Positions 32,605 through 33,851 of a stretch of DNA of 33,851 nucleotides are shown one piece after another. Source of the DNA: a bacterium (GTDB lineage: Bacteria; Sysuimicrobiota; Sysuimicrobiia; Sysuimicrobiales; Segetimicrobiaceae); contig DASSXJ010000040.1 in the NCBI GenBank assembly GCA_035703895.1, positions 1 to 33,851 on the forward strand. The letters run 5' to 3'. The translations under genes and the position numbers were made by a program. Numbering within the stretch: position 1 is the stretch's first letter; each line of letters opens with the position of its first letter. The notes beneath the pieces are model-generated. The model saw nothing but the letters and a program-made list of their open reading frames with translations, did no database searches and had not been told where the DNA came from.

Positions 32605-33851
32605 TTCAAGCCCTCGACCGATTAGTACCGGTAGGCTCAAGGCCTTGCGGCCCTTACACCTCCGGCCTATCAACCAGGTAGTCTTCCTGGGGTCTTACCC
32701 GGTTAGCCCGGTGGGAGGCCTCATCTTGGGGTGGGTTTCGCGCTTAGATGCTTTCAGCGCTTATCCCGTCCGCACATAGCTACCCGGCGCGTGCCCTTGG
32801 CAGGACAACCGGTACACCAGAGGTGCGTCCACTCCGGTCCTCTCGTACTAGGAGCAGCTCCCCTCAAGCCTCCTGCGCCCGCAGTGGATAGGGACCGAAC
32901 TGTCTCACGCGTGTTGTTTCCCCTGTTTCCAGAGGCACAGACTATAGCTCCATCCTTCCGGAGAAGTCAGAAGGAGCCGGCGTATGATGGGTGTCATAGA
33001 TTTGCTTCTTCAGCACAACAACCCATCTCAGGCCTTGCGGCCATCAGTCGTTACAGGGAACGGAAGCCGATCTCCGGTAGTGCTTCCCTCATTCCAGCTT
33101 CCGTTCTTCCCTCGGTATTGCCCTCCGCAACGTTCGGCAGTTGCGGGAGGGTTCCACCGATATCAGCCGGTTTGCACCTCAGGATTACTCCCGAGGGACG
33201 CAGTGTCCCTACGTTCTGAACCCAGCTCACGTACCGCTTTAATGGGCGAACAGCCCAACCCTTGGGAGCTACTACACCCCCAGGATGCGATGAGCCGACA
33301 TCGAGGTGCCAAACCTCCCCGTCGATGTGGACTCTTGGGGGAGATCAGCCTGTTATCCCCGGGGTAGCTTTTATCCGTTAAGCCACGGCGCTTCCACTTG
33401 CCGCCGTAGGATCACTAGGCCCGACTTTCGTCCCTGCTCGGCTTGTAGGCCTCACAGTCAAGCCCCCTTATGCCCTTACACTCGACGCACGGTTTCCAAC
33501 CGTGCTGAGGGGACCTTGGGGCGCCTCCGTTACATTTTAGGAGGCGACCGCCCCAGTCAAACTGCCCACCTGCCACTGTCCCGACAATCGATGAGATCGT
33601 CGGTTAGGACGTAATTCAATCAAGGGTGGTATTCCAAGGTTGGCTCCACCGAAGCTGGCGCCCCGGCTTCGACGCCTCCCACCTATCCTCTACATGACAG
33701 AACCACATCCAATGACAGGATACAGTAAAGCTCCACGGGGTCTTTCCGTCCAGCTGCGGGTAGTTCGTGTCTTCACGAACACCACAACTTCGCCGAGTCC
33801 CTGGTCGAGACAGCGCTCAAGTCGTTACACCATTCGTGCAGGTCGGAACTT
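32605..33851 (-). rRNA. rrl: 23S ribosomal RNA, 3' part, interrupted by an intron
   Basis: The minus strand carries domain IV end to domain VI from about E. coli position 1950 (AAGTTCCGACCTGCACG at the window edge) to the 3' end (CCGGTACTAATCGGTCGAGGG). Landmarks include GACGGAAAGACCCCGTG, GGGATAACAGGCTGATCTCC, the sarcin-ricin loop AGTACGAGAGGACC and GGGCTGTTCGCCC. The coding exons are 33211-33851 and 32605-32909; 32910-33210 is an intron. The 5' part of the gene lies outside the window. The 3' end is placed to within a few bases. Confidence 0.97.
32910..33210 (-). ncRNA. Group I intron in 23S rRNA at site L2593, no endonuclease
   Basis: 301 nt interrupting GAACGT|CGTGAGACAG, the equivalent of E. 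coli U2593. Numbering the intron from 33210, P1 pairs exon ACGU with intron nt 10-13 (GCGU), giving U-G at the splice site. P2 is 15-22/27-34 with a GUAA loop. P3 is 41-45/230-234, P4 51-55/95-99, P5 60-71/80-90, P6 100-104/151-155 and P6a 108-114/144-150. P7 is 162-165/268-271 (ACGACUG with CUAUAGUC). P7.1/P7.2-like hairpins span 170-225, P8 spans about 235-263, and P9 is 276-281/286-291 with a GAAA loop. The intron ends in G. A short P10 (GUG with CAC) is possible. The extra hairpins after P7 point to subgroup IA. No ORF of use is inside. Confidence 0.93.

Follow-up and report, generated by a model that had tools for sequence, protein, structure and literature searches.

A gene-less group I intron of the L2593 family in a bacterial 23S rRNA gene

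The window, a bacterial contig of 33,851 nt, ends inside a 23S rRNA gene that is split in the sequence for the peptidyl transferase centre. The site predicts that ribosomes would plausibly be inactive unless the insert is spliced out of the transcript. This raises the questions of what the insert is, whether it is likely to leave the rRNA cleanly, and how it came to occupy this position.

An insertion after U2593

Aligned to RF02541, the gene covers 33851..32602 on the minus strand, and the insert is skipped between ...CAGAACGU and ACAGUUCGG... on its two sides. Direct reading gives a split of exactly 301 nt (33210..32910, minus strand), with borders in the letters of GAACGT, the 301 nt and then CGTGAGACAG. 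In comparison with E. coli rrlA (L083, 2905 nt), the exon junction falls at rrlA 2594/2595. We take the standard E. coli numbering (2904 nt) to be one lower at this site, so the insert lies after U2593 and before C2594. Insertion after U2593 is the defining feature of the L2593 intron family. RF02541, the direct reading and rrlA together uphold the exact 301-nt split at GAACGT that the first-pass annotation of this DNA had described; that annotation lacked three points, namely the minus strand, the cut of the gene by the contig end at 33851 and the silence of the Rfam group I model RF00028. The insert is present once in the assembly (4.38 Mb, 337 contigs). Table 1 gives its elements and surroundings.

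Table 1. Features of the interrupted 23S rRNA gene and of the intron, in window coordinates
Feature	Position	Strand	Basis
Group I intron, 301 nt, after 23S U2593 (L2593)	32910..33210	-	RF02541, rrlA comparison, covariance model
23S rRNA 5' exon part; ends at contig end = rrlA 1953 = first base of L1951 3' exon	33211..33851	-	
23S rRNA 3' exon	32602..32909	-	RF02541 and rrlA alignment
5S rRNA, same operon, downstream of 23S	32343..32459	-	Rfam
CAC, can pair with GUG of 3' exon (P10)	33203..33205	-	by inspection only
Internal guide sequence GCGU; P1 by pairing to exon ACGU, U.G at splice site	33198..33201	-	
P2 hairpin, GUAA loop	33177..33196	-	alignment of 55 introns
P3 5' strand CCGGC	33166..33170	-	alignment of 55 introns
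P4 (UCGGU/ACCGA), encloses P5	33112..33160	-	alignment of 55 introns
P6 hairpin; 29-nt loop (33068-33096) at homing endonuclease gene position of relatives	33056..33111	-	
P7 5' strand GACU, after A and bulged C	33046..33049	-	alignment and covariation
P7.1 hairpin GGCC-GCAA-GGCC	33031..33042	-	alignment and covariation
P7.2 hairpin	32986..33027	-	alignment and covariation
P3 3' strand GCCGG	32977..32981	-	alignment of 55 introns
P8	32954..32974	-	alignment and covariation
P7 3' strand AGUC, with guanosine-binding G-C pair	32940..32943	-	alignment and covariation
P9 hairpin, GAAA loop	32920..32935	-	alignment and covariation
Terminal G of intron (omega G)	32910..32910	-	direct reading

Relatives at the same site and their hosts

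The first-pass annotation had proposed searching 23S genes of the same clade for insertions at 2593. We searched 43 genomes of the window's phylum and found matches to the insert in seven. The matched insert lies at L2593 in four of these (the window's own, G023, G025 and G001), and the two same-family introns among them are 82-93% identical to that of the window over parts. For the remaining three, G028, G009 and G003, the match is part of an intron that interrupts 23S elsewhere, at about L1951, and every one of these genomes has a further intron near L2604. Occupancy of L2593 was scored in 14 of the 43 genomes. Besides the four filled sites, seven are exactly empty and three are empty by alignment, and each of the latter three genomes has an intron near L2604. 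One empty site belongs to G033, a member of the window's own genus. The intron near L2604 in G028 (L088:5946-6202) is recognised by RF00028 and lies some eleven bases from the empty L2593 site.

A genome in so many contigs, with a contig end inside the 23S gene, could hint at an artefact of assembly or binning, that is, a chimeric contig. We consider this very improbable given the relatives: a homologous intron sits at the same base in two same-family genomes and one same-order genome, and the flanks fit the phylum, the 5' exon being 97.3% identical to G028 and the 3' exon 98.1% identical to G033. Beyond the 23S gene, moreover, 5S rRNA and alanine dehydrogenase (78% identical) follow in G028, of the same family, as they do in the window.

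Read on the minus strand, the contig starts at 33851, where the 3' exon of L1951 begins, the site that holds an intron in G028, G009 and G003, and the assembly may have broken at a second intron there. A 23S 5' part from G003 had no match in the window's assembly, and the L1951 intron of G028 matched only the window's L2593 intron there. In G028, the lack of a 5' part upstream of rrlA 1953 made us consider a trans-split 23S gene; we rejected it, as the upstream stretch reads N.

For relatives outside the phylum, we scanned 84,980 species once with 18 bases, consisting of the terminal G of the intron and 17 bases of the 3' exon. This pattern matched 72 contigs, and 51 of them hold a complete insertion between L2593 exons. 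Eight more have an intron-like end without a usable 5' exon (L016, L018, L019, L021, L027, L041, L057, L073). The remaining 13 were not counted, being point variants, contig ends or matches in unrelated places (L012, L013, L017, L025, L045, which has very little sequence, L046, L051, L055, L067, L069, L070, L078, L081). Because the scan demanded an exact match and a fixed G, its total is an under-count. The 51 introns carry 20 NCBI phylum-level labels, with nine unlabelled, and the hosts in the scan include many CPR groups, Omnitrophota, Actinomycetota, Pseudomonadota, Cyanobacteriota, Melainabacteria, Armatimonadota, Chloroflexota and Acidobacteriota. The first-pass annotation had held that group I introns in bacterial 23S genes are known mostly from other sites; these 51 introns contradict it, as do passages in two published studies (PMC1995217, PMC11270868).

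An archaeal contig from the scan (L073, Aenigmatarchaeota) has a group I-like intron end before an L2593 3' exon. One 23S gene of Uhrbacteria (L065) holds seven insertions of 209-957 nt, at about E. coli positions 1930, 1952, 2262, 2449, 2500, 2533 and 2593. The L2593 introns of L028, L031, L052 and L065 apparently lack P7.1 and P7.2, their 3' halves measuring 81-88 nt, and three of the four are just 209-249 nt long.

The 51 scanned introns, the window's and the three from its phylum form a family set of 55, whose aligned cores omit the stretch between the P6 strands. Similarity within this set follows the hosts only in part. Between the window and a Fimbriimonadales contig (L062), the intron cores share 77.7% identity and the 23S sequences 77.2%, whereas for G001, from the window's own order, the values are 77.5% for the intron and 91.7% for 23S. 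Because the intron of so distant a host is as close as that of a same-order one, the comparison suggests that the L2593 intron has moved between phyla. Intron identity correlates modestly with 23S identity (rho 0.40, P 0.025) across the 31 loci that have 600 nt or more of 23S sequence.

Covariation and the group I core

Does the family fold as a group I ribozyme? RF00028 has no match to the window intron at its cut-off, nor anywhere in the whole genome, and on a short stretch containing the intron it returned nothing even at E up to 10. The first-pass annotation had suggested this search and had named the lack of a covariance-model hit as grounds for giving up its reading, so by the letter the outcome went against it. 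The same model at cut-off also missed the L2593 introns in 7 of 7 gene-bearing loci tested, as expected because a long insert splits the match. However, two family members without a recognised gene, L064 and L065, exceed the 50-bit threshold of RF00028 with 57.6 and 50.9 bits, which the window intron does not, and they tie the L2593 family to group I through an outside model. Given these two short members and a family covariation pattern expected of a group I core, the miss is no refutation. We treat a match to RF00028 as a detection aid and not as a defining feature of group I introns.

We built a covariance model from the 3' halves of 42 relatives, leaving the window out, with 17 base pairs chosen by RNAalifold and without P7. 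It scores the window intron at 105.1 bits (E 1.2e-27), although such scores are mostly sequence. The 42 come from the 54 non-window introns; those left out (L026, L028, L031, L039, L042, L047, L052, L060, L065, L077, L080, L082) mostly have very short or very long 3' halves, and L047 is near-identical to L015. In direct sequence comparison, the window intron matches other L2593 introns with E values down to 5e-45.

Covariation was measured first with the window left out. In these 42 sequences, pairing reaches 86.4% of cells, compared to 70.5% when shuffled and 34-43% with partners slid, and double changes occur in 181 cells against 61.8 in shuffles. The number of pairs showing a double change is the weakest measure, at 17 against 15.0, and was reached by 25 of 500 shuffles. 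Across the full set of 55, the P7 pair next to the bulge reads A-U in 33, G-C in 17 and U-A in 1 of the 51 introns with letters at this position (4 of 55 are gapped). The guanosine-binding G-C pair in P7 is present in 51 of 51 with letters, and the adjoining bulge is C or A. The two strands of P3 are separated by 184 nt in the window, and the pairs they form are kept in 51, 54, 49, 54 and 49 of the 55 introns. In P9 and in all but one of the eight P2 pairs the letters change, in most cases freely, yet pairing persists in 47 to 55 of the 55. The group I core (P3-P9, P7 and the P3 pseudoknot) is supported by covariation in both the 55 and the 42 sequences.

Other elements are less informative. 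The four P7 pairs between GACU and AGUC show no joint variation, nor do P1 and P6, and none of these adds to the covariation. P1 is paired in 53 to 55 of the 55 introns per position, with its exon side fixed by how the introns were excised from their contigs. The U.G at the 5' splice site occurs in 54 of 55, where the exon U was likewise preset. The terminal guanosine is present in the window intron; in the 51 scanned relatives the scan pattern required it, so it is no test there. P7.1 and P7.2 of the window intron sit between the 5' strand of P7 and the 3' strand of P3, an arrangement associated with subgroup IA, to which the intron may belong. The details drawn in the first-pass annotation can all be located: the U.G, the terminal G, the GUAA and GAAA loops of P2 and P9, and P7 from ACGACU and AUAGUC. 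Its helices P1 to P9 fare unevenly, as covariation upholds the core while some pairs are poorly kept, namely the outermost of P2 (23 of 55), the innermost of P5a (23 of 54) and the outermost of P7.2 (23 of 45). Homology, the covariance model and covariation nevertheless agree with the earlier proposal of a complete group I intron at this site, and by its sequence the 301-nt insert belongs to the group I introns of the L2593 family.

These data also bear on an ordinary 23S intervening sequence, which RNase III would excise without ligation. Intervening sequences of this kind occur in bacterial 23S genes, and the insert folds better than chance would give, the minus strand with short exon flanks lying 4.4 sd below 100 shuffles. 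Such an element is a stem-loop without a ribozyme core, whereas here a group I core is present, with covariation that extends to the pair flanking the P7 bulge and to the P3 pseudoknot. At the same base, relatives have homologous introns that encode homing endonucleases, and the site is within the catalytic core of the ribosome. We give this explanation next to no credence.

An alternative of a different kind is a group I intron past splicing, which is either retained in the 23S rRNA or cut out with no joining of the exons. The silence of RF00028 would fit such decay, and there is a precedent in Simkania, whose 23S rRNA reportedly contains an unspliced group I intron. Against this, the window intron matches the consensus at each of the 53 intron columns with 95% or more conservation among the 54 others, so the core is intact as far as sequence can tell. 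Retention in the peptidyl transferase centre should also be harmful, and the assembly has no uninterrupted L2593 site, although it is without the 5' part of the gene, so a second copy could be missing. Overall, we find an intron that no longer splices improbable.

The position, anatomy, homology, covariation and unbroken conserved core positions of the L2593 intron were computed directly, and its splicing chemistry most likely follows the general group I mechanism. P1 would present the U.G 5' splice site, and a guanosine bound at the G-C pair of P7 would attack it. The freed 5' exon would then attack after the terminal G, joining the exons as GAACGU-CGUGAGACAG.

Endonuclease genes and known L2593 introns

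The window intron contains no endonuclease gene: its longest frame has 29 codons and overruns the intron end, and tblastn of three endonuclease representatives found no match in it. Among the 55 introns, 38 match LAGLIDADG_1, 8 match LAGLIDADG_2 and 9, including the window's, match neither; L056 and L061 count as LAGLIDADG_1 through remnants of about 40 residues only. Pfam assignments of nine proteins (five LAGLIDADG_2, three LAGLIDADG_1, one 23S_rRNA_IVP) agree with the matching to representatives. The shortened LAGLIDADG_1 genes at L061:65-434 and L056:2450-2819 are apparently stages of endonuclease decay. A Patescibacteria L2593 intron (L026:2026-2834) has a 23S_rRNA_IVP gene (PF05635, E 3.7e-28) and no recognised endonuclease gene.

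In a tree of the cores, the window intron falls in a branch of seven (95/92), in which LAGLIDADG_2 is carried by every one of the other six, from G025, G023, G001, two Fimbriimonadales and one Chloracidobacterium. Its exact place inside this branch is weakly supported (83/61). Where these relatives have the gene, the window has a plain P6 hairpin. The simplest and best reading is that a LAGLIDADG_2 gene was lost from P6, and it rests on the tree because no clear scar remains in the P6 loop. We had considered the 29-nt loop itself as a scar, since its start somewhat resembles the region of a start codon, but shuffles scored equally well; in comparisons of the loop with gene ends, 29, 39, 3 and 15 of 150 shuffles were as good for L085, L086, L087 and L062, respectively. 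On the tree, an ancestor would have carried the homing endonuclease gene in P6, the window's lineage would have lost it, and the gene-less ribozyme would now be passively inherited or lost.

The same tree speaks to the wider history of the family. Well-supported branches force at least three changes of the LAGLIDADG_2 label, which may be gains or losses. They support one exchange of endonuclease family among L2593 introns, and a second is likely only through the distant intron L031. We think it fairly probable that there is one L2593 ribozyme family in which an I-CreI-like LAGLIDADG_1 gene in P6 gave way to LAGLIDADG_2 at least once and perhaps repeatedly. In that history, the LAGLIDADG_2 form would span three or more phyla (the window's, Armatimonadota and Acidobacteriota) on one supported branch, with the window intron as a gene-less derivative.

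Taken together, the evidence leaves us highly confident that the insert is a known-family L2593 group I intron with P7.1 and P7.2, most likely self-splicing, that descends through gene loss from a carrier of LAGLIDADG_2. It adds one more intron to an established family, and its history of gene loss is interesting but ordinary. Its relatives place group I introns in the peptidyl transferase centre well beyond cyanobacteria and CPR, in 20 NCBI phylum-level groups from one scan. Because some L2593 introns escape the standard Rfam model, annotation likely under-counts them. Within one bacterial family, L2593 sites that are filled, gene-less or empty make a tractable case of gain, decay and loss of homing introns, a cycle accompanied by an apparent change of endonuclease family.

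How does the intron compare with known systems? L2593 is presumably also the site of the chloroplast intron that encodes I-CreI, an endonuclease of the LAGLIDADG_1 type. The comparison covers the shared insertion site, and the window intron is without the gene. Among open-licence papers, we found no report of LAGLIDADG_2 at L2593, which is a weak absence, and the site name "L2593" together with LAGLIDADG and 23S appeared only in Haugen et al. 2007 (PMC1995217).

That study describes, in the sections bearing on this site, L2593 introns of 744-748 nt with a LAGLIDADG endonuclease gene in three cyanobacteria, Thermosynechococcus elongatus and Synechococcus C9 and C1 (PMC1995217). Their P2 and P5 are short, P7.1 and P7.2 are present, and they were compared with Twort. 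The window intron shares with these descriptions the base of insertion, the short P2 and P5 and the P7.1/P7.2 hairpins, and differs in being 301 nt long and gene-less. The Thermosynechococcus intron in our set (L035) has a core that aligns with the window's and a gene in P6, and lies far from the window in the tree. A 2024 survey of CPR bacteria, in its passages on endonuclease genes, names 2593 as one of the 23S sites where LAGLIDADG_1 genes occur and places LAGLIDADG_2 at 16S sites, not at 2593 (PMC11270868). Compared with those insertions, the window intron occupies the same site in another host, and its closest relatives carry LAGLIDADG_2 where the CPR introns carry LAGLIDADG_1.
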